DNA from: Tichowtungia aerotolerans
Lineage (GTDB): Bacteria; Verrucomicrobiota; Kiritimatiellia; Kiritimatiellales; Tichowtungiaceae
Reading direction: 5' to 3'
NCBI RefSeq assembly: GCF_009905215.1
Contig: NZ_CP047593.1
Location: 1,988,900-2,052,899, forward strand
DNA: 64,000 bases
The first letter of the stretch is position 1. The number at the start of each line of letters is the position of its first letter. The notes below the pieces were generated by a model that was not told the DNA's origin, did no database searches, and worked only from the letters and a program-made list of their open reading frames with translations. Shown piece by piece: positions 44,821 to 56,662 of this stretch. The position numbers and the translations under genes were made by a program.

Positions 44821-44897
44821 AAGCCCGGTCTCCAGACTTTGGAAAGATACTGTGTCGCAGTGCAGTTGCTTTTCCAATGTTTGGAAAACCGGGTTTT
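44821..44897 (+). terminator. Terminator after fucI
   Basis: AGCCCGG (44822) can pair with CCGGGTT (44889), followed by a run of five T residues. The enclosed loop contains one imperfect (44830) and one perfect (44872) TTCCAA-N3-TTGGAA palindrome, which could form the stem on its own. Confidence 0.6.
44872..44886. repeat. TTCCAA-N3-TTGGAA palindrome, copy 5
   Basis: Perfect copy (spacer TGT) inside the fucI terminator region. Confidence 0.9.
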
Positions 44898-45379: not shown

Positions 45380-46245
45380 AGACTCCACGGCAGACGGCCG
45401 GGAGAGTTTGTGTCGAGCTGGCCGGATGCGAGCAGGTCATCGAGCTGGGCCAGCAGGCGCGGTTTGTCTTTTGGAAAGCGGCCTTCGAGCGGAATAATGT
45501 TCGACGAGTGATCCGAACGGAAAACCGTTGAGTCCAGTTCGAGGTTTGCGATCTGTTCCCGCAGTTCTTTCACCGCCTGAAATTCCGTGACCATTTTGAA
45601 TCCGCTTTTATAGAGCGGTGTGTTGGGAGTCGTTACCAGACGCAGGGCGGAGAGCAGGCGCGGCTGCATTTTATTCAGAACGTCGGCCGTGGCATGGGCA
45701 TGAAGGGTGGAGCGCCGTTCCCCGGCGAGACCGGTGAGGATCATAACGGACATGCGCAGTCCTGCGGCCTGTGCGCGTTGTCCGGCCTCTATCATTTGTT
45801 CGGCGGTTTCGCGTTTGTTAACGGTTTTGAGTGTCTCGTTGTCGCCGCTTTCGAGTCCCATGTAGAGTGTGTTGAGCTTCAGCTCTTTCAGGCGTTGGAG
45901 CTCGTCATCGGTTTTGGCCAGAATGGATGTTCCGTTGGCGTAGATGCCGACGCGCGCGAGGCGGCTGAATTTTTCGTTCAGCGAAAGCAGCATGGTTTCC
46001 AGGGTTTGGAAATCCAGATGCATTACATCGCCGTCGGCGAGAAAGATGCGCCGTGCGTCCGGCCACATTTTCCAATGTTTGGAAATTTCGCGCTCGGCGT
46101 TTTCCAGCCCTTGGAAATGATATTTCACGCCCTTGTACATGCCGCAGAAGGTGCAGCCGTTCCACGGGCATCCGTCGGCGACCCGGATGATCAGGCTGTC
46201 CGCTTCGCCCGGCGGCCGGTAGAGAGTATGAGTTTTTCCAAACAT
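45376..46245 (-). CDS. Radical SAM protein with CX4CX2C motif
   Basis: A 289-residue radical SAM enzyme. The iron-sulfur motif is VADGCPWNGCTFCGMYKG, i.e. C-x4-C-x2-C, one residue longer in the first spacing than the usual CX3CX2C; this spacing is found in a recognisable family with the phrase CPWN-x-CTFC. A GLESGDNETLK segment matches the glycine-rich SAM-binding region of this superfamily. The reaction is unknown. The start codon and next codons are part of a TTCCAA-N3-TTGGAA palindrome (46236-46250). Divergent from the Mut7-C gene. Confidence 0.85.
   Translation of the reverse strand: MFGKTHTLYRPPGEADSLIIRVADGCPWNGCTFCGMYKGVKYHFQGLENAEREISKHWKMWPDARRIFLADGDVMHLDFQTLETMLLSLNEKFSRLARVGIYANGTSILAKTDDELQRLKELKLNTLYMGLESGDNETLKTVNKRETAEQMIEAGQRAQAAGLRMSVMILTGLAGERRSTLHAHATADVLNKMQPRLLSALRLVTTPNTPLYKSGFKMVTEFQAVKELREQIANLELDSTVFRSDHSSNIIPLEGRFPKDKPRLLAQLDDLLASGQLDTNSPGRLPWSL
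46070..46084. repeat. TTCCAA-N3-TTGGAA palindrome, copy 6
   Basis: Perfect copy (spacer TGT) inside the radical SAM gene; one-mismatch copies lie at 45997 and 46102 in the same gene. Confidence 0.9.
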
Positions 46246-46250
46246 TGGAA
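46236..46250. repeat. TTCCAA-N3-TTGGAA palindrome, copy 7
   Basis: Perfect copy overlapping the start codon of the radical SAM gene at 46245. Confidence 0.9.
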
Positions 46251-46325
46251 AAACATAGCAGAGCGACGGCCGCGAAGAAAGATTTGCGGTTTCCGTTTTA
46301 TGGACAAAAGAGCATCATTGCGGGA

Positions 46326-49365: not shown

Positions 49366-49554
49366 CTATTCTTTCATCCCGAACAGCTTCATGATTTTCG
49401 CTGCCGGGCAGAATCCGGTGAAGGCCGACTGGATCAGGTTGATGCCGATAAAGGCGGTGAACAGCAGCCACCATTTGCTGCCTGCGGCGACCAACAGAAC
49501 CGATGCCAGAATCATGACCCCGGCGAATACGCGTACTCCGTTTTCTACTTTCAT
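49366..49554 (-). CDS. DUF2892 small membrane protein
   Basis: A 62-residue inner-membrane protein with two hydrophobic segments (VRVFAGVMILASVLLVAAG; WWLLFTAFIGINLIQSAFTGFCPAAKIMKLFG). The GFCPAAKIMKLFG ending is typical of DUF2892 proteins, also found fused to rhodanese domains in YgaP. It is the last gene of the minus-strand envelope operon, 11 bp after the DUF302 gene. DUF2892 and DUF302 often occur together near sulfur or redox-related genes; the function is unknown. Confidence 0.85.
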   Translation of the reverse strand: MKVENGVRVFAGVMILASVLLVAAGSKWWLLFTAFIGINLIQSAFTGFCPAAKIMKLFGMKE

Positions 49555-49565
49555 GACTGCCTCCT

Positions 49566-50033
49566 TTACTGATTCAGGAACGCGGTGAAGGCTGCGGTTT
49601 CCGGGGCGACGGATCCTCCCATCATTTTTGCAACGGTTCCCCCGAACATACGGCCCATCAATCCCGCATTCATTGTAGCGACATAGACTGATCCGTCACT
49701 TTTTTCGTAAACCGAAATGGTGCAGGGCATCATCAGCGAGACGTACATGGAATCGTCGTCATTCAGAATTTCCGCGGCATAGTGCGGCTCGCAGATTTTC
49801 AGCAGGGTCACGCGCGGTGCGGTCTGTCCGCGTTTGGCCAGACTTTTCTGCATGTCCATGTTGCTGGAAATGACCCAGCCTCCGTTGGTCACGGCGCTTT
49901 CGATTTTTTGAACGGTCTCTTCGTAGGAAAGCGGGCTGACGCGTTCTTTCAGCATCAGTCCCGGCGCGGCCAGTTTGGCAATGACTGCGAACAGTACGAA
50001 TCCGATGATGATTCCTGTAAGTATCTTTTTCAT
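49566..50033 (-). CDS. DUF302 domain protein
   Basis: About 155 residues with an N-terminal membrane anchor (KKILTGIIIGFVLFAVIAKLAAPG) followed by a periplasmic-side DUF302 domain (SYEETVQKIESAVTNGGWVISSNMDMQKSL ... KICEPHYAAEIL ... YVSLMMPCTISVYEK). The ATG at 50033 is set by GGAGAAGCAA; the frame extends eight codons upstream. The cysteine in KICEP and that in MPCTI are typical family positions. Function unknown; perhaps heme or sulfur related. Confidence 0.88.
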   Translation of the reverse strand: MKKILTGIIIGFVLFAVIAKLAAPGLMLKERVSPLSYEETVQKIESAVTNGGWVISSNMDMQKSLAKRGQTAPRVTLLKICEPHYAAEILNDDDSMYVSLMMPCTISVYEKSDGSVYVATMNAGLMGRMFGGTVAKMMGGSVAPETAAFTAFLNQ

Positions 50034-50051
50034 TTGCTTCTCCTGGTCATT

Positions 50052-50132
50052 GCCCACGAATCACACGAATATTCACGAATGGAATTTACTGTACTCTTTC
50101 AGGATTCGTGTTCATTCGTGTGATTCGTGGGC
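50052..50132. repeat. Inverted repeat of CACGAAT units (empty element)
   Basis: The left arm 50052-50080 and right arm 50104-50132 match at 26 of 29 positions when one is reverse-complemented; the loop is 23 bases. The unit is CACGAAT repeated three times. It lies between the DUF302 and beta-barrel genes. Confidence 0.85.
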
Positions 50133-50138
50133 GGTTTT

Positions 50139-51389
50139 TTAAAAGCTATATCTCGCGGCGAGCGCGATGTTGCTGTCATCCTCGAACTGTCCGAAGAATG
50201 TGTGGTTGTGGTTTCCGATAAAAATATTGCCGCGCGCTTCGATCAGCCAGTTGTCGGTCAGCTTGTAGGAGACGTTGGGGCGCAGGTAAGCGTCCTGATC
50301 GGTGGGCGACCAGTAGGTAAACAGACCGAGCGTCAGGTTCTGGTTCATCAGCATTTGGGTCAGGCGCAGCGTGATCACATGGCGGTCTTCGTCACGACGC
50401 GGGCCGGATGCGGTTTGCTGATACTCATCATAATCCATCATGTGCTCGATGTAGTACTGAACCGAGCCGGTCAGGTCGGTTGCCAGCTCGTGCTCGTAGC
50501 CGGCCAGAACGCGGAATTCGCTGTTGGGCGTGAACGGATCAGTTCCGTCGCGGTCATCGCGTGAGTCGTAATACCCTGCTTCAAGATTGGCGATGCCGCC
50601 GGCCAGCGCGCCGCGCGCACTGGCGCCGTACACGGACAGTTTCGGGAAGGTGTTTTGCATGGTGCTCAAATCATACCCCTGTGGCGTTTTCCAGAACCCA
50701 TTATACCCGTATCCCGCGATTTCCCAACCCTGGAAATTCCGGTAGATGCGCAGGGCAATCTCGTCATCTTCAAACCAGTCGTCGGGCTTATCGGTTTGCA
50801 GGTCGGCGCCGGTCAGACCCGTTCCGCCCCAGTAGGAAAAGCGCTCGCCGTCGATAAAGCGGTCGGAATCGAAGCGCGGTATATAGGCGACATCAATGGT
50901 CGCGAAGGAGGGGAAAAAGCTCACGAACAGCGCGTCAGACGGCGCCTTGAGGTATTCCTCATCGCGTCCGGCAAAGAACGATTTCCAATCCTTGGAAAAC
51001 AGATCGTTGATGAACAGCAGGTCGCCGGTTCCCCACGTCAGGATCTGGCGCCCGACCTTCACGTCCGCCCAGTACACCGGCGTAAAGAGCACATTCAGCT
51101 CGCGCAGGTCGATCGGCCCTTCGCCGGTTTCCAGATCAATATGATCGTGATTATTCGCCACGCCGTCGTAGAGAAAATCCGAGCGCGCCGTCAGCGTGAA
51201 CAGATCGTGATACCAGATGCTGTTGAGCTGGAGGCGGGCTTCGCTCAAGGTTTCGTCATCAGAATTCGGATCACTCTGAATTCGGACGCCGTAGCGCGCA
51301 TCCACGAACCCGTGAAGCTCCTGAGCGAAGCTCGGCGAAAGATGAAAGATGAAAGATGAAATCAGAAAAAGGGTTTTCAGTTTTTTCAT
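50139..51389 (-). CDS. Outer-membrane beta-barrel protein (DUF1302-like)
   Basis: About 416 residues: signal peptide (KTLFLISSFIFHLSPSFA) followed by a strand-rich barrel (LHGFVDARYGVRI ... SEARLQLNSIWYHDLFTLTARSDFLYDG ... DVKVGRQILTWGTGDLLFINDLF) ending in an aromatic residue (AARYSF), as outer-membrane proteins do. GGAGCAGCAGC precedes the ATG at 51389. It is downstream of a LolA-like gene and an MMPL transporter, a combination known in Gram-negative bacteria for moving lipids or hydrophobic compounds to the outer membrane. A 7-base tandem repeat lies in the signal peptide region. Confidence 0.82.
   Translation of the reverse strand: MKKLKTLFLISSFIFHLSPSFAQELHGFVDARYGVRIQSDPNSDDETLSEARLQLNSIWYHDLFTLTARSDFLYDGVANNHDHIDLETGEGPIDLRELNVLFTPVYWADVKVGRQILTWGTGDLLFINDLFSKDWKSFFAGRDEEYLKAPSDALFVSFFPSFATIDVAYIPRFDSDRFIDGERFSYWGGTGLTGADLQTDKPDDWFEDDEIALRIYRNFQGWEIAGYGYNGFWKTPQGYDLSTMQNTFPKLSVYGASARGALAGGIANLEAGYYDSRDDRDGTDPFTPNSEFRVLAGYEHELATDLTGSVQYYIEHMMDYDEYQQTASGPRRDEDRHVITLRLTQMLMNQNLTLGLFTYWSPTDQDAYLRPNVSYKLTDNWLIEARGNIFIGNHNHTFFGQFEDDSNIALAARYSF
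50983..50997. repeat. TTCCAA-N3-TTGGAA palindrome, copy 10
   Basis: Perfect copy (spacer TCC) inside the beta-barrel gene, encoding part of FSKDWKSF. Confidence 0.9.
51337..51361. repeat. Heptanucleotide tandem repeat in a signal peptide
   Basis: GAAAGAT occurs three times plus GAAAT, encoding part of the signal peptide of the beta-barrel protein. A gain or loss of one unit would shift the reading frame. Confidence 0.7.
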
Positions 51390-51414
51390 GCTGCTGCTCC
51401 AGCTGTTTTTAATG

Positions 51415-51433
51415 GCCACAAAAAACACAAAAA
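51415..51433. repeat. Left inverted repeat flanking the 142-residue gene
   Basis: GCCACAAAAAACACAAAAA, identical over 19 bases to the reverse complement of 51901-51919. The two copies bracket the small gene at 51447-51875. Confidence 0.85.
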
Positions 51434-51446
51434 GTCACAAGAATGG

Positions 51447-51875
51447 TCACTTCCCTATCGTGCGTTTTAATGCATCTAAACCAGGCGTTCTTGAGGCTAA
51501 GAATCCAGTTCTTTTCGGGTAGAGCACGAGGACTTTTCCAAACGCAGTTGGCTTGTTAGATTTAATGATTACGAAATGTGGATAGAAGAAACATAAGTCA
51601 ATGATGTTATGGATATCACTCAACTTGAGTTCATCTGATTTAAAGAAGCCCTGCAGGTGAATCCCGTCAGGGGTGAGAGATACATGACAACTGCTTCTGC
51701 CCAACCATAAAAGCAGAAGGGCGCATAAACCAAATATTACAGACCCAATGGTAGTGATGACAATGTCGTCAGAATCTGAAAACCAGATGCCTACAGAGGC
51801 GATCAGAAAAAAGGTGCCGAGGAGGATGTCTAAAAACTTTCTGACAAATGTAGCTTTAGATGATATTCTTTTCAT
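51447..51875 (-). CDS. Small membrane protein bracketed by inverted repeats
   Basis: A 142-residue protein with two adjacent hydrophobic segments (FLDILLGTFFLIASVGIWF; IVITTIGSVIFGLCALLLLWLG) followed by a strand-rich soluble part (CHVSLTPDGIHLQGFFKSDELKLSDIHNI), the layout of small bacterial PH-domain-like membrane proteins. It is visibly richer in A+T than the operon around it. It separates the LolA-like gene from the beta-barrel gene and lies between two identical 19-base inverted repeats, so it looks like an insertion. Function unknown. Confidence 0.7.
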   Translation of the reverse strand: MKRISSKATFVRKFLDILLGTFFLIASVGIWFSDSDDIVITTIGSVIFGLCALLLLWLGRSSCHVSLTPDGIHLQGFFKSDELKLSDIHNIIDLCFFYPHFVIIKSNKPTAFGKVLVLYPKRTGFLASRTPGLDALKRTIGK

Positions 51876-51900
51876 TTTTTTGGATAGTTTTCTTTTTGAT

Positions 51901-51919
51901 TTTTTGTGTTTTTTGTGGC
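51901..51919. repeat. Right inverted repeat flanking the 142-residue gene
   Basis: The reverse complement of this stretch is identical to 51415-51433; together they enclose one gene and about 60 bases of spacer. Confidence 0.85.
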
Positions 51920-51928
51920 TAACACTCT

Positions 51929-52705
51929 CTACTTCGTTGCTTCTCTGGGAGGTCTTCTCAGGAAGCGTTCGGTGAAGATCATGTCTTTGAGGCCGATGTT
52001 GTATTGAACGCTGCTGAAGCTGTTGACGGTGTAGGTGCCGCGGGCGAGGTCGTCGACGCGCGACTCGGTGACGGTCGGGAAGCCCTGAATAGTTTCGATT
52101 TTCGTTGCTTCAACGCGGCGATAGAGCTTGCCGTTTTGGTCGAGGTATTCGGCTTTAACCGGCAGGAAGGTTTCTTTGTCGATCTGCACGGTATATTTGC
52201 TGAAGTCGACGGAGCCGGGATCCTTCGGAACGTTTTTGACGATGTACTGCGTGTCGGTTTCGTCGATCAGCTCATGTGTGTCTTCCCACAGCGCGCGGCC
52301 TGAAACATCCTCGTAGACAAAGTCGGAGCCGACAAAGCTGGTGCGTTTGTCGCCGGGCGCGATCGGCTTCACCAGATTGAGCGCGGGCAGGAATAGCCAG
52401 CGGCTGTCGTCTTTGCCCTGTTCAACTTCTTTCCAGACCATGAATACCTGGCGGCGCACATCGGCCGGTTCCTTGAAGTAGACATAAAACTTCTGGGTTC
52501 CGTTGCCGGTGTTGAGGCGCAGGATGCGGAACTCGCGTTCGCGTGTGCCGCCGCCGGCATCGGTGATCACCATTTTGACATCAGCTTGACCGTCAGATCC
52601 TGCATAATATGAAGCTTGGTTTGCTTTGTCGACGATCTCGTCGACGGTCAGAGCGAATGCGTTGATTGATACCAGAGTCAGTATTGCTGTGATCCACTTT
52701 TTCAT
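51929..52705 (-). CDS. Outer-membrane lipoprotein-sorting (LolA-like) protein
   Basis: About 258 residues with a signal peptide (KKWITAILTLVSINAFA) and a LolA-like half-barrel typical of proteins paired with MMPL transporters (TVDEIVDKANQASYYAGSDG ... REREFRILRLNTGNGTQKFYVYFKEPADVRRQVFMVW ... SRWLFLPALNLVKPI). GGAGGATCAGAA precedes the ATG at 52705. It probably carries a lipid or lipoprotein across the periplasm between the MMPL pump encoded upstream and the beta-barrel encoded downstream. The substrate is unknown. Confidence 0.85.
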   Translation of the reverse strand: MKKWITAILTLVSINAFALTVDEIVDKANQASYYAGSDGQADVKMVITDAGGGTREREFRILRLNTGNGTQKFYVYFKEPADVRRQVFMVWKEVEQGKDDSRWLFLPALNLVKPIAPGDKRTSFVGSDFVYEDVSGRALWEDTHELIDETDTQYIVKNVPKDPGSVDFSKYTVQIDKETFLPVKAEYLDQNGKLYRRVEATKIETIQGFPTVTESRVDDLARGTYTVNSFSSVQYNIGLKDMIFTERFLRRPPREATK

Positions 52706-52740
52706 TTCTGATCCTCCATTTTGATAGCCCAAATAATTTC

Positions 52741-52810
52741 ACCGCGGATTACGCTGATGAAGACGGATTATAGGGAATAAGAATCCGTATAAATCCGCGT
52801 TATCAGCGGT
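52741..52810. repeat. Inverted repeat, CCGCGGAT family (empty element)
   Basis: The arms 52741-52768 and 52783-52810 match at 22 of 28 positions in inverted orientation, around a 14-base loop. It lies between the MMPL and LolA-like genes and contains no gene. Confidence 0.8.
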
Positions 52811-52825
52811 TAATAACAATTAGTT

Positions 52826-55819
52826 TCATTCGTGTTCATTCGTGGTTTTCCTAAATAAGTATTTTTTCAATCCGGTTGCTAAGGCTGCCAATATAAATAA
52901 CGTCGCCAGCCACGAGACGGCCATAATGGTGGCGAGGAAGAAGCCGACGGTGCGGTAGGGCGTGAGCGGCGCGAAGAGCAGCGGCGTGAAGCCGAGCGAG
53001 ATGGTGATGGCGTTGCGGCTAATGGCCATGGCCGGTTCCTTGAACATTTCCTTGATGGCTTCCTGCCAGCTGCCGAATTTTTTCTGCAGCTCGCGAGCGC
53101 GCTCGAGGAAGTGGATGGCAAAGTCGACGCTCAGTCCCAGCGTGAGCGAGGAGAGGACGGCGACCGGCATGTCGTAGTCTTTGCCGACCCAGCCGAGCAG
53201 GCCGTAGATGAAGGTGATGGTGACGCTGAGCGGGATCATCGCCAGCAGGCCGAAGAGCGGCGAGCGGAACAGAACCATCATCATGATCAGCACAACGATG
53301 AAGCTGCTGCCGAGCGCGGAGAGCATGCCGGTGACCATGCGATCCTGCCAGACGACGTTGAGGTAGGTCAGTCCGGCCCACTCAACACTCATCGGAACCG
53401 GCGGCGGGTTGGCGGCGATCCAGTCGGCGGCTTCTTCTGTGACGGCGGACATATCGGTGTTGTCGCCACTGGTGAGCTGCACCCAGATATTGGCGTCCTG
53501 ATAGTCGCGCGTGACGAGGTGGAACAGGCTGTCTTTTTTCTTCATGCCTTCGAGCTGGATGAAAACCTGTCCGCAGGCGGCGGCGGTGTCCGGTACGCTG
53601 TAGTTGGCATCGTTTTTCTGATCGATGGCATCTTTGAGGTCTGCCGGCACGCTGGACGGATCAATGTACTGCAGTTCATACGATGCTTTCTTGAGCGCGT
53701 CGACCGCGCTGCTGGTTTTTCCAATCTTTGGAAACGCTTCGAGGTGATCCTGCAGTTTTGCGATCCAGCGCAGCATGTCCGGCTGTTTCATCGGTGGCGC
53801 GGTGATTTCGGCTTTCTGTTCATAGAGGAAATCGACGAAAGAAAGCGCGGTGTATTCATCGGTAACTTCCAAAGCCGCTTCTCTCAAATCTTCACCGCTC
53901 AAACCTTCCAAGGAGGCTGAGCCTCCACCCTTAAGGGTTTCCAATGCTTGTGAAATAGCAGGCCTGTCGGTGCTACCGACTTCCAAGATTTGGAAAAAGA
54001 CCGTGGTGTTTTCGAGCGCGGCGGGTTCCATGTAGTTAATGTCGTCGGCGAGTTTCATCCACGGGCCGCTGACGGCGTCGTCGATTTTCTGCGCCTCGTT
54101 GATGAGGGTGACGAAGCATTCGTCCGGGTTGCAGCTGGAGACGTTGCTGTATTTTGCGTGCTGCAGGTCGAGCAGGGCGGTGAACTGCCTGGTCTGCTCC
54201 GGCAGTTTTTCGGTAAAGCGCTCCTGGGCCGCGGCTCTCATCTTGACGAGGGCTTCTGTGCAGGTGCAGGCGTCCGAGGTTTTCGGGGTGAAGGTGAGGT
54301 AGGCGGTGTAGGTGCCGCCGAAGTGGTGGTTGAGCACCGCGTCGGCAACACGGATTCGATGGGTTTTCGTGAACCACTTAACCGGGTTGTCGTTGACCTG
54401 GATACGCTGGATTCCGATGGCGGAGATGATGACGACCAGACTGCTCAGCACCAGAATCAGTTTCCAATGGTTGTAAGAGAAGGTTCCGGTTTTTTCGAGC
54501 AGGCCGTCGAGCCCGCGGCGGGTGTGGTGCTCTTCTTTATCGGGAAGCGCATCGAGCATTTTTTTCGGGACGAAGAGCATGATGTAGGCGGGCACGAAGG
54601 TCATGGTGAGCACCCACGCCAGCGCGACCCCGAAGGCGACGTGCGCACCGAATACTTTGACCGGCGGGATCGGGGTGAAGATGAGCGAGGCGAATCCGGC
54701 GATGGTGGTGAGCGAGGTGTAGAGCATCGGCATGAAGAGGTGGCCGATGACGTGCTTGACCGTTTCTTTTTTGTCGCGGAAGCGGTGATAGGCGTCAAAG
54801 AATTCGCTGAGGATGTGGACCGAGTCGGCGACAGCGATCGGCATGAGGAAGATGGCGATCATGGAGCTCATGATGTGTACGTCGAAGCCGAGGCCGATTA
54901 AGAGACCCATGGTGCAGATGACGCTGACGATGGCGACGAGCATCGGCGCAATGATGAGAGAGAGCCGACGGAAGAAGAGCAGCAGGAGCAGGAAGATGAC
55001 GAGTCCGGCCAACGGCGCAGAGCTGGCCATCTGGACGAGCATTTCGATGCCGAAGGTGTCCTGTGCGACCGGCTGGCCGGTAATGTAGACCTGGTCTTCG
55101 ACAGGCCAGTCGGCGGTCAGTTTTTCGACGAGGTTGGCGACGTTGTAACTGTAGGTTTTTGCAACGATGGGAATGTAAAGCGCGACCGCTTTCCCGTCCT
55201 CGGAAACGAGCGTTCCTTTGTAGAGCGGGTTGTTCATGGCGTCGTCGCGGATGACCAGTGCCTCTTCGCGCGTTGTCGGCGGCTCTTCCATCAGGTACTC
55301 GATTTTGAGCGAACCCTGATCCGCCTGTTTGATGTTATCGACCACCGGCGGGCTGATCAGTTCCGGTTTGATGATGGCGCTGTTGCCGTCTTCGTCGAAC
55401 AGGTGGTTCACGTCGTGGCGGAATACCTTTTCGAGAATCCGTTTGCCTGCGCTTGCGGGCTGAAGATCGGGAACGAAGGTTTCCGGTACGGTGATCTCGG
55501 GCAGACCGTCGGCGTTCTGCCGCAGGCTGAGCAGCTGTTTGGTGAGTGTGTGGATGCGACCGAGCGTTTCGACGTTGAAGACGCCGTCCGGGTTGTTGGT
55601 GTTGACGATTCCGGCGATAACGAAATCGTAGAGTGCGTACTTTTCTTTGGTGCGGTTATGAAAGACCCGGACCGGTTCGTCAGGGGAGAGCATGTTTTCG
55701 GGGTCGTTGTCGAACTGGACCTTCGGGAACTGCTCGGTGCCGAAGATGACTGCGGCCAGTACCAGCAGAACGACGATCCAAGGGAAACGGAGGCTGAAGT
55801 GTGTCAGTTTTAGTTTCAT
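52826..55819 (-). CDS. RND/MMPL-family transporter
   Basis: Inner-membrane transporter of 997 residues with two similar halves. Each half has one N-terminal membrane helix, a large periplasmic region, and five or so helices in a cluster (first cluster about 255-430, second about 820-990). Both clusters show MMPL-type segments: MPIAVADSVHILSEFFDAYHRF and LGLSVDFAIHFLERARELQ. It should be driven by proton flow and move lipids or other hydrophobic compounds, with the LolA-like and beta-barrel partners downstream. The last six residues and the stop are encoded by a CACGAAT repeat. Confidence 0.92.
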   Translation of the reverse strand: MKLKLTHFSLRFPWIVVLLVLAAVIFGTEQFPKVQFDNDPENMLSPDEPVRVFHNRTKEKYALYDFVIAGIVNTNNPDGVFNVETLGRIHTLTKQLLSLRQNADGLPEITVPETFVPDLQPASAGKRILEKVFRHDVNHLFDEDGNSAIIKPELISPPVVDNIKQADQGSLKIEYLMEEPPTTREEALVIRDDAMNNPLYKGTLVSEDGKAVALYIPIVAKTYSYNVANLVEKLTADWPVEDQVYITGQPVAQDTFGIEMLVQMASSAPLAGLVIFLLLLLFFRRLSLIIAPMLVAIVSVICTMGLLIGLGFDVHIMSSMIAIFLMPIAVADSVHILSEFFDAYHRFRDKKETVKHVIGHLFMPMLYTSLTTIAGFASLIFTPIPPVKVFGAHVAFGVALAWVLTMTFVPAYIMLFVPKKMLDALPDKEEHHTRRGLDGLLEKTGTFSYNHWKLILVLSSLVVIISAIGIQRIQVNDNPVKWFTKTHRIRVADAVLNHHFGGTYTAYLTFTPKTSDACTCTEALVKMRAAAQERFTEKLPEQTRQFTALLDLQHAKYSNVSSCNPDECFVTLINEAQKIDDAVSGPWMKLADDINYMEPAALENTTVFFQILEVGSTDRPAISQALETLKGGGSASLEGLSGEDLREAALEVTDEYTALSFVDFLYEQKAEITAPPMKQPDMLRWIAKLQDHLEAFPKIGKTSSAVDALKKASYELQYIDPSSVPADLKDAIDQKNDANYSVPDTAAACGQVFIQLEGMKKKDSLFHLVTRDYQDANIWVQLTSGDNTDMSAVTEEAADWIAANPPPVPMSVEWAGLTYLNVVWQDRMVTGMLSALGSSFIVVLIMMMVLFRSPLFGLLAMIPLSVTITFIYGLLGWVGKDYDMPVAVLSSLTLGLSVDFAIHFLERARELQKKFGSWQEAIKEMFKEPAMAISRNAITISLGFTPLLFAPLTPYRTVGFFLATIMAVSWLATLFILAALATGLKKYLFRKTTNEHE
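52828..52845. repeat. CACGAAT repeat overlapping the MMPL stop codon
   Basis: ATTCGTGTTCATTCGTGG matches the right arm of the 50052-50132 element. Read on the minus strand it encodes the C-terminal T-T-N-E-H-E of the transporter and its stop. Confidence 0.75.
53719..53733. repeat. TTCCAA-N3-TTGGAA palindrome, copy 11
   Basis: Perfect copy (spacer TCT) inside the MMPL transporter gene, in the segment for its second periplasmic region. Confidence 0.9.
53981..53995. repeat. TTCCAA-N3-TTGGAA palindrome, copy 12
   Basis: Perfect copy (spacer GAT) inside the MMPL gene, with an imperfect copy 40 bases before it. Confidence 0.9.
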
Positions 55820-55837
55820 GATATGTTCCTCAAAAAA

Positions 55838-56287
55838 TTAACCGCGAAAGAACGCAGAGATCGCAAAGAAAAGAACCGGGATTAATCCTGCAGCCTGAGA
55901 GACGGTTTTTTTACTTTTTGCGAATTTCTTAATTTCAAATTTATAGGATCCGAAATTGATCAGGAGCCCATGCTCTTTGCCGGCACCTTTGAGGTAATGG
56001 ATGAGTTGTGCCTGATGTTCTGCTGTTATTGTCTTACAGGCTTTGAGTTCCACGATGAGTTCATCTTCAATAAACAAATCGGCGTAGTATTCTCCGATTT
56101 CGGTGCCGTCTTCGTCGTAGATGAGTAAGCGGTGCTGCTGTTTTACATCCAATCCGGTTTTACGGAGACGGTGAGACAGAGCGTTCTCATAAACCTTTTC
56201 CAGGTATCCATTTCCGTGATATTCATGAACTGCGTAGGCGGTTTCTTGAACCTGATCACAAAGGGCAATGATTTGGTCTGTGTTCAT
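55838..56287 (-). CDS. GxxExxY protein, inserted between regulator and transporter
   Basis: A 149-residue protein of the GxxExxY family, which has a nuclease-like PD-(D/E)XK fold. The name motif is GYLEKVYENAL; the conserved core EYYADLFIEDELIVELKACKTITAEHQAQLIHYLK includes D, E and K in nuclease-like positions. The cellular role of the family is not established. It lies between the ArsR regulator and the MMPL gene and is bracketed by inverted repeats. Its last ten or so residues (FFAISAFFRG) are encoded by the left repeat, which suggests insertion of the gene and repeat as a unit. Confidence 0.88.
   Translation of the reverse strand: MNTDQIIALCDQVQETAYAVHEYHGNGYLEKVYENALSHRLRKTGLDVKQQHRLLIYDEDGTEIGEYYADLFIEDELIVELKACKTITAEHQAQLIHYLKGAGKEHGLLINFGSYKFEIKKFAKSKKTVSQAAGLIPVLFFAISAFFRG
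55839..55872. repeat. Left inverted repeat of the GxxExxY gene
   Basis: It begins TAACCGCGAAAGAACGCA and matches the reverse complement of 56293-56326 at roughly three quarters of positions. It overlaps the 3' end of the GxxExxY frame, including its stop. Confidence 0.75.
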
Positions 56288-56292
56288 TGTTT

Positions 56293-56326
56293 TTCCTTTT
56301 GCGTTCCTTGCGTTCTTTTGTGGTTA
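56293..56326. repeat. Right inverted repeat of the GxxExxY gene
   Basis: The reverse complement begins TAACCACAAAAGAACGCA. The TAA at its outer edge is the stop codon of the ArsR gene. Confidence 0.75.
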
Positions 56327-56662
56327 CAGATTCTCAAAATCCTCTTTTGTGCAGTGGGTGCAGATGCAGTTCAAAATGGAGAGGGGGCGGGGATCGGAAA
56401 TGGAATACCACATTTCCTTGCCGCGGCGTTCGCCGGCAAGCAGTCCGACACGCCGCATCTGATTGAGATGCTGAGAGACGACGGCCTGCGGAAATCCTGT
56501 TTCTTTGATCAGCGCATGCACGGGCACCTCCTGTTCCCGTTCGAGAATCTCAATGATACGCAGTCGTTGCGGATGTGCGAGCATTTTCAAAGTCTGTGCT
56601 GCACGTTCCAGTGCTTCAACGGTCAGCCGTCCTTCGCGAATACATGAGTGGGTCGTTTTCAT
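56324..56662 (-). CDS. ArsR/SmtB-family transcriptional regulator
   Basis: A 112-residue winged-helix repressor (ALERAAQTLKMLAHPQRLRIIEIL ... ALIKETGFPQAVVSQHLNQMRRVGLLAGERRGKEMWYSIS). The recognition helix is FPQAVVSQHLNQM. C-terminal cysteines (NCICTHC) and an N-terminal HSC may bind metal or sense thiols or sulfur compounds. It is the first gene of the minus-strand envelope operon and probably controls it, binding near its own start in the AT-rich region at 56663-56700. Confidence 0.9.
   Translation of the reverse strand: MKTTHSCIREGRLTVEALERAAQTLKMLAHPQRLRIIEILEREQEVPVHALIKETGFPQAVVSQHLNQMRRVGLLAGERRGKEMWYSISDPRPLSILNCICTHCTKEDFENL

Follow-up and report, generated by a model that had tools for sequence, protein, structure and literature searches.

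Gene order and repeat elements of the operon

The window analysed here, a stretch of 64,000 nucleotides from Tichowtungia aerotolerans (NZ_CP047593.1), carries on its minus strand an operon that runs from an ArsR regulator through an MMPL transporter, a LolA-like protein, an outer-membrane protein (OMP) and a DUF302 protein to a YgaP-like protein. The operon junctions hold two loaded inverted repeats, two empty ones and a fifth, single arm (Table 1). An inverted-repeat search recovered, at the right coordinates, all five of the repeat features that had been predicted from the letters of the window, and both hairpins predicted to be empty do indeed enclose no gene.

Table 1. Genes and repeat elements of the operon, in window coordinates
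Feature	Position	Strand	Basis or detail
YgaP-like transmembrane protein gene	49366..49554	-	profile match
DUF302 gene	49566..50036	-	profile match
Empty element, CACGAAT-type units	50052..50132	.	29-nt arms, 90% complementary
Putative outer-membrane protein gene	50139..51389	-	kept in the operon of relatives; no family match
Loaded element with 142-aa gene, CACAAAA-type units	51415..51919	-	arms 51415-51440 and 51894-51919
142-aa protein gene, passenger	51447..51875	-	weak resemblance to STM3941 family, below cut-off
LolA-like outer-membrane lipoprotein-sorting protein gene	51929..52708	-	profile match
Empty element, CGCGGAT-type units	52738..52813	.	32-nt arms
Single three-unit arm (CACGAAT, CACGAAT, AACTAAT)	52819..52845	.	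also codes 3' end of MMPL gene
MMPL/RND transporter gene	52826..55819	-	profile match
GxxExxY-loaded element, CGCAAAG/CGCAGAG-type units	55839..56326	-	arms 55839-55876 and 56289-56326
GxxExxY protein gene, predicted PD-(D/E)XK nuclease family, 149 aa	55838..56287	-	TIGR04256, PF13366
ArsR/SmtB-type regulator gene, operon gene 1	56324..56662	-	profile match

The arms of the GxxExxY element are 38 nt long and 76% complementary. The original prediction placed this gene between inverted repeats; the arms are there, but the reading frame does not merely lie between them, since it spans the whole downstream arm and its last approximately 13 codons are arm sequence. The stop codon of the ArsR gene falls within the other arm. 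Around the 142-aa gene the arms are 26 nt long and 92% complementary, and their outer 19 nt are perfect, in agreement with the identical 19-base repeats reported there. The 142-aa protein, which resembles the STM3941 family at 20.2 bits against a cut-off of 40, is probably a membrane protein, as judged by eye from its sequence.

With a seed of 10 and a score of at least 16, the window contained 5 inverted repeats, compared with none in any of 10 simulated first-order Markov sequences. Taken together with a 400-kb sample of the same 3.88-Mb genome (20 stretches of 20 kb), it yielded 28 inverted repeats at this score, of which just 8 belong to the unit type described below, the others including different repeat types, as against 1 in one simulated set; at a score of at least 17 there were 19 and 0, respectively. 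The repeats of the window are confirmed as real and far above chance expectation.

Arms of three phased units

Each arm is approximately 27 nt long and is built of three units of about 7 nt (C[AG]CNRAN) that repeat every 9-10 nt, with the two arms of an element inverted. We parsed units in 85 GxxExxY elements with clear arms, and retained the 61 that gave three units in both arms (24 were dropped); unit spacing was 9/9, 10/9 or 9/10 in 102 of the 122 arms. Unit identity within an arm was 82% in 21 elements of this genome and its relatives, vs 62% after shuffling, and 0 of 2000 shuffles reached the observed value. Units agree inside an element and differ between elements, with CACGAAT, CACAAAA, CGCGGAT, CGCAAAG and others present in one genome. 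The proposal that the repeats form one element class is borne out by this shared architecture, but with units that vary from one element to the next, the window contains four members of the class instead of a single element in four copies.

Immediately outside the CC, the left and right arms have the same base in 95% of 59 elements, vs 39% expected, and we therefore count that base as part of the element. Outside the element ends lies a T-rich (TTTA) flank on both sides. In 21 of 57 elements the GxxExxY reading frame has its stop codon within the downstream arm. Genome matches to the arms were obtained with a single-arm sequence model, which is weak (best E 0.09, 17 matches); a hairpin covariance model was dropped as MAFFT misaligned the diverse hairpins.

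Predicted RNA folding of four elements, compared with shuffles, gave z values of -8.3, -2.9, -7.5 and -4.1, the values of -8.3 and -7.5 belonging to empty elements, which fold far better than their shuffles. Such strong folds, together with the intergenic position of the hairpins, are what ordinary regulatory hairpins or terminators of independent origin at each junction would show. We give this explanation very little credence, given that the three-unit architecture and the association with GxxExxY genes are shared across phyla. Intrinsic terminators, which the original prediction had itself named as the reading that would speak against it, were also searched for and rejected: 11 terminator-like sites were found, not above a background of 10.2 (sd 3.0), and downstream of the empty hairpins, in the direction of the operon, there is none. 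Transcription through the elements, as first proposed, would fit this lack of a signal above background.

Association of the arms with GxxExxY genes

A search with the GxxExxY protein of the window, limited to one genome per species, returned 113 loci, of which 80 were kept and 78 could be scored. Inverted arms (score of at least 14) flank 60 of these 78 loci, as opposed to 4 of 209 neighbouring ORFs, and the products of 3 of those 4 ORFs identify them as GxxExxY genes themselves. This control replaced a null of mismatched arm pairs, in which 13 of 79 lay above the 99% point and which is too harsh because the arms share a consensus. According to their titles, the 80 records derive from Verrucomicrobia, Kiritimatiellae, Lentisphaerae, Planctomycetes, Desulfobacteraceae, Hydrogenedentota, Acidobacteria, Cloacimonetes and others.

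Within the T. aerotolerans genome itself, arms surround 8/8 intact GxxExxY genes at a score of at least 12 and 6/8 at a score of at least 14 (controls, 0/9); a ninth copy, a sub-threshold fragment, was left out of the scoring. From relatives we fetched 29 GxxExxY genes, 5 of them too near contig ends to score, and found arms around 19 of the remaining 24 (controls, 1/11). A further 40 genes of relatives, scored with wider flanks and without a control, had arms in 32 cases. GxxExxY matches are present in 8 of 72,556 plasmid records, and both plasmid-borne cases examined were without arms; the phage sequences searched gave no match. Because arms score below 14 at 18 of the 78 loci and are absent from the two plasmid cases, the association, although strong, does not extend to every GxxExxY gene. 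The genes bracketed by arms had been described as passengers, and loaded forms do exist, but GxxExxY is no random passenger: it is the characteristic and by far the most recurrent gene of this element class.

The GxxExxY protein of the window scores 120.5 bits against TIGR04256 (cut-off 35) and 114.3 against PF13366 (cut-off 22). The motif set of PD-(D/E)XK nucleases comprises a catalytic E, a D, (D/E)xK and QxxxY. Among 49 aligned GxxExxY sequences E30, D70, K82 and Y98 are invariant, and E80 and Q94 are conserved in at least 90%. The predicted structure (pLDDT 90) has as its best PDB rows SSO0001, which we take to be a Cas4, AdnAB and lambda exonuclease; as the VIA-align Z was below 8 in all but three rows, we claim no single PDB relative, and describe the predicted fold as Cas4/RecB-like. 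On its residues and its modelled fold, we assign GxxExxY to the PD-(D/E)XK nucleases.

Arms shared by empty and loaded elements

A GxxExxY gene elsewhere in the genome (L004) has the arms of the empty hairpin at 50052, another (L008) has those found around the 142-aa gene, and a third (L005) has the unit type of the hairpin at 52738. The elements of the window that are empty or carry other cargo thus match GxxExxY elements of their own genome in 3/3 unit types, and the expectation that such elements occur both empty and loaded holds, with the same arms on both forms in one genome. At one genomic locus, near 61.7-61.9 kb, what remains of a GxxExxY gene between a pair of CACAAAA arms codes for roughly its first 24 residues, and we read this locus as a deletion derivative of a GxxExxY element, on its way to an empty one. 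The elements are short, have terminal inverted repeats and lack a transposase, as MITEs do, and an origin by internal deletion, likewise a criterion for MITEs, is represented by this one case and by the empty elements that have the arms of loaded ones.

Similar pairings occur in relatives. G002, G010, G019 and G025 have CACTAAT hairpins at the MMPL-LolA junction as well as CACTAAT-armed GxxExxY genes, and G029 has both a CACGAAT hairpin and a CACGAAT-armed GxxExxY gene. No matching GxxExxY element was found for the CACTAAT hairpins of G014 and G031 (3/5 and 5/8 genes examined), for the CACAAAA hairpins of G002 and G003 (3/4 and 8/12 genes examined) or for the CGCAAAG hairpin of G003 (8/12 genes examined).

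The 400-kb sample contained four further elements of the unit type: the one at 1.70 Mb encloses a GxxExxY gene, and the other three share a single ExbB/ExbD operon, so that the elements cluster. In the ExbB/ExbD operon (L172 5045-12285, genome ~1.305-1.312 Mb), two of the three elements have GxxExxY genes. Another sampled stretch (L169 4578-5241, genome 704,578-705,241) contains four strong inverted repeats in a row, with 28-32-nt arms.

That such arms can hold other passengers, as they do the 142-aa gene in the window and a 65-aa gene in G002, could also mean that an unrelated host transposase or recombinase moves arms and GxxExxY gene in trans, and that GxxExxY is cargo, for example with a role in defence or addiction. 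The genome has Y1 transposase genes (5 matches over cut-off) and one reverse transcriptase, and GxxExxY bears a weak, sub-threshold resemblance to Cas4-like and candidate defence models. We nevertheless think this explanation unlikely, considering that GxxExxY is so much the recurrent gene of the class, and that six transposase and reverse transcriptase loci, read by eye over 500 nt on each side, have no clear inverted arms of the unit type; with nothing clear in these flanks, we do not favour Y1 transposase or reverse transcriptase as owners of the arms. A GCAAAG-like stretch lies downstream of one of these loci (L163).

Junctions of the operon in related genomes

We obtained 20 stretches of the operon from relatives and read their junctions by eye. 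At the LolA-OMP junction, readable in 18 relatives, the 142-aa gene was found in 0/18. Arms of the CACAAAA type are present there in two relatives, around the different, 65-aa gene in G002 and beside a peroxiredoxin-like gene in G003; in G025 and G019 heptamer arrays flank a gene for an S23p four-helix-bundle protein, and the spacer is almost absent in G010 and G001. The ArsR and MMPL genes lie within 600 nt of each other in 10 relatives, and GxxExxY was found between them in 0/10; G002 and G003 have an empty CACAAAA hairpin at this place, and in G010 the two genes touch. A homologue of the 142-aa protein was detected in 1/39 relatives, at 40% identity and without arms. The junctions of relatives are therefore bare, or hold other elements or other passengers, and this presence, absence and replacement at the same junctions upholds the proposal that the elements insert between operon genes.

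At the MMPL-LolA junction the picture differs from that predicted. The two passengers do not recur, as had been expected, but this junction, compared in 19 relatives, has an old element common to two families: a CACTAAT/CACGAAT hairpin is present in seven relatives (G010, G002, G025, G019, G014, G031 and G029), its first arm coding for or adjoining the MMPL C-terminus. In an alignment of the seven, 91% of cells pair and 5/23 pairs have changed on both sides, and we interpret the hairpin as one older element shared by these relatives. The feature of the window first called a half copy, at 52828, is a single arm, but a complete one of three units, and it occupies the place of the older hairpin, with the CGCGGAT hairpin next to it. 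It is probably a remnant of the older element, and we infer that the younger CGCGGAT hairpin inserted into the older element or replaced part of it.

A stem kept through two-sided changes, along with the folding of two of four elements at z -8.3 and -7.5, could be explained if the elements were the equivalent, in operons, of 23S rRNA intervening sequences, with RNase III removing the stem, selection acting on RNA removal and DNA mobility being rare. The Coxiella intervening sequence, as presented in PMC4990558, provides a precedent: its small S23p ORF lies between terminal inverted repeats (stem) of about 28 bp, with tandem heptamers beside it, it is excised by RNase III, and S23p intervening sequences are described in that source as selfish. 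In this bacterial order, S23p genes (TIGR02436) occur in heptamer arrays, with inverted arms in 10/23 scored, and at the junctions of this very operon in G004, G025 and G019. We consider the explanation improbable, for an RNA stem calls for neither the helical 9-10-nt pitch, nor the three units per arm, nor the correlation between protein and units (see below). The elements of the window, moreover, all lie between protein genes, in mRNA operons and none in rRNA, and their passengers are GxxExxY, the main one of the class, and the 142-aa protein, neither of them an S23p. The S23p heptamer elements, with their period of 7 nt, form a separate class, sister to the GxxExxY elements; the heptamers beside the Coxiella ORF link this S23p class to known elements. 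S23p genes between tandem heptamer arrays (GAAACTN, GATGCTT, GCCTAAA and others) were seen at L050 3131-3571, L056 4276-4695, L059 4224-4586 and L068-L070.

The gene content of the operon varies in further respects. The DUF302 gene, located at 49566-50036 in the window, is found after the OMP gene, between ArsR and MMPL or before ArsR in different relatives (L053, L054, L062, L063). A peroxiredoxin-like gene, so named by eye, has entered the operon of G003 at the LolA-OMP junction (L062), and an apparent truncated copy of it is present at the MMPL-LolA junction of G026 (L066).

Transmission and mobility

In two pairs of GxxExxY genes whose products are 91% and 84% identical, the flanks show no detected similarity, and four pairs at 77-81% identity do share flanks. 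From this combination we conclude that the elements both move and are inherited, many of them being simply inherited. Protein identity and unit identity are correlated among 54 elements of this genome and its relatives (Mantel r 0.46, 0/5000 permutations, with GxxExxY reading frames picked by HMM), with unit identity at 0.86-0.89 above 60% protein identity and at 0.61-0.62 below 45%. Sets that included some wrong frames gave r 0.17 (own genome and relatives, 59/2000) and r 0.29 (1/5000; nine loci flagged, at least one wrong). At the level of sequence, this correlation indicates that arms and GxxExxY gene are transmitted as one unit. The correlation is also what one would expect if the protein recognised the arms, but it is no proof of this, as co-inheritance could give it too.

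In a search for target duplications, the best flanking repeats averaged 3.35 vs 3.14 in shuffled flanks (sd 0.12), and no consistent direct repeat was found in the T-rich TTTA flanks, in a comparison that had no very close empty site. A neighbour within 400 nt is present on each side of 37 elements. The two neighbours share a strand in 28 of these, and in 28/28 such cases the element's gene (ORFs chosen by length) reads in the sense direction. The median distances to the neighbours are 16 and 33 nt.

On balance, and with only slightly more confidence than doubt, we favour the explanation that these are one class of small selfish elements, in which a nuclease gene and its arms move together and of which the empty elements are deletion derivatives. 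The complete form, of approximately 420-650 bp, would consist of two inverted three-unit arms around a GxxExxY gene that reads with the host operon, the 9-10-nt pitch of the units corresponding to about one turn of DNA. Internal deletion, seen in a single case, would leave short or empty hairpins, and the same arms could house other small genes, again seen in single cases. The GxxExxY nuclease may recognise the phased units of its own arms, spread the element by cutting and copying through repair, in a homing-like manner, and act in trans on empty elements with the same units; a nuclease alone, it should be said, has no joining activity. Persistence between operon genes would be favoured by the sense orientation, the little added sequence and a hairpin that is not a terminator; RNase III may also cleave the stem in the transcript, as it does in 23S rRNA intervening sequences. 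The parts of this scheme that can be read from the sequences themselves are the architecture, the association, the co-transmission, the deletion derivative and the turnover at junctions.

A more specific version, which we regard as possible but would sooner doubt than accept, is that the elements are autonomous and their class widespread, that each GxxExxY nuclease reads a private code of three helically phased units, that code and nuclease co-diverge, and that several distinct lineages reside in one genome, each mobilising its own empty elements in trans while the operon supplies the promoter.

Relation to known systems

The elements described here share features with several kinds of known repeats. 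REP/REPIN sequences are small palindromes, dispersed in the genome, whose mobility is ascribed to a RAYT (Y1) gene that acts in trans and has the same palindromes at its own ends. The likeness to our elements lies in dispersed palindromes combined with a gene that bears them at its ends; the gene here, however, is a predicted PD-(D/E)XK nuclease and not a Y1 transposase, and the arms are long and composed of several units.

Correia/NEMIS and ERIC MITEs, as characterised in PMC10969869, are likewise short, palindromic, mostly intergenic and of low to moderate copy number, and the same source reports RNase III cleavage of Correia transcripts and ORFs that are sometimes inside MITEs. Unlike these, the present elements have arms of three phased units with element-specific spelling and a recurrent nuclease gene in their complete form, and no target duplication was detected. 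The TAACTGA heptamers of Beggiatoaceae are also short, reiterated intergenic units with a patchy distribution across phyla, but are presented in the relevant part of PMC4679880 as one fixed heptamer in tandem, direct array, without inverted arms or passenger. A Thiomargarita MITE, a palindrome tentatively tied to a PD-(D/E)XK (YhgA-like) protein, differs, in the account of it in PMC4853749, in its nuclease family, in the 10-bp direct repeats at its ends and in being a single sequence family.

GxxExxY proteins are annotated in many genomes and little treated in the literature searched; PMC8934634 mentions them in passing, and the name also occurs in PMC12085832. Six arm sequences did not occur in the literature that we searched with them, and a description of this element class was not found there; the elements look like a little-described kind of selfish DNA. 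The tie to a recognisable DNA architecture gives the GxxExxY family a testable function, that of a nuclease set against its own arms, and unexplained intergenic hairpins of PVC-group and other environmental bacteria become one class. If recognition is shown, the variable but internally uniform units would constitute natural protein-DNA specificity pairs.

We also note a second dispersed palindrome, approximately TTTTCCAANNNTTGGAAAA, that is repeated in the T. aerotolerans genome and in relatives (L049, L062). In the window, similar palindromes lie at 44870-44888, 46068-46085, 46234-46252, 50982, 53718 and 53980, and they occur also within the coding sequence of the OMP and MMPL genes; further copies are at L169 3680-3840, L173 1590, L174 4503, L175 8901 and L177 541.
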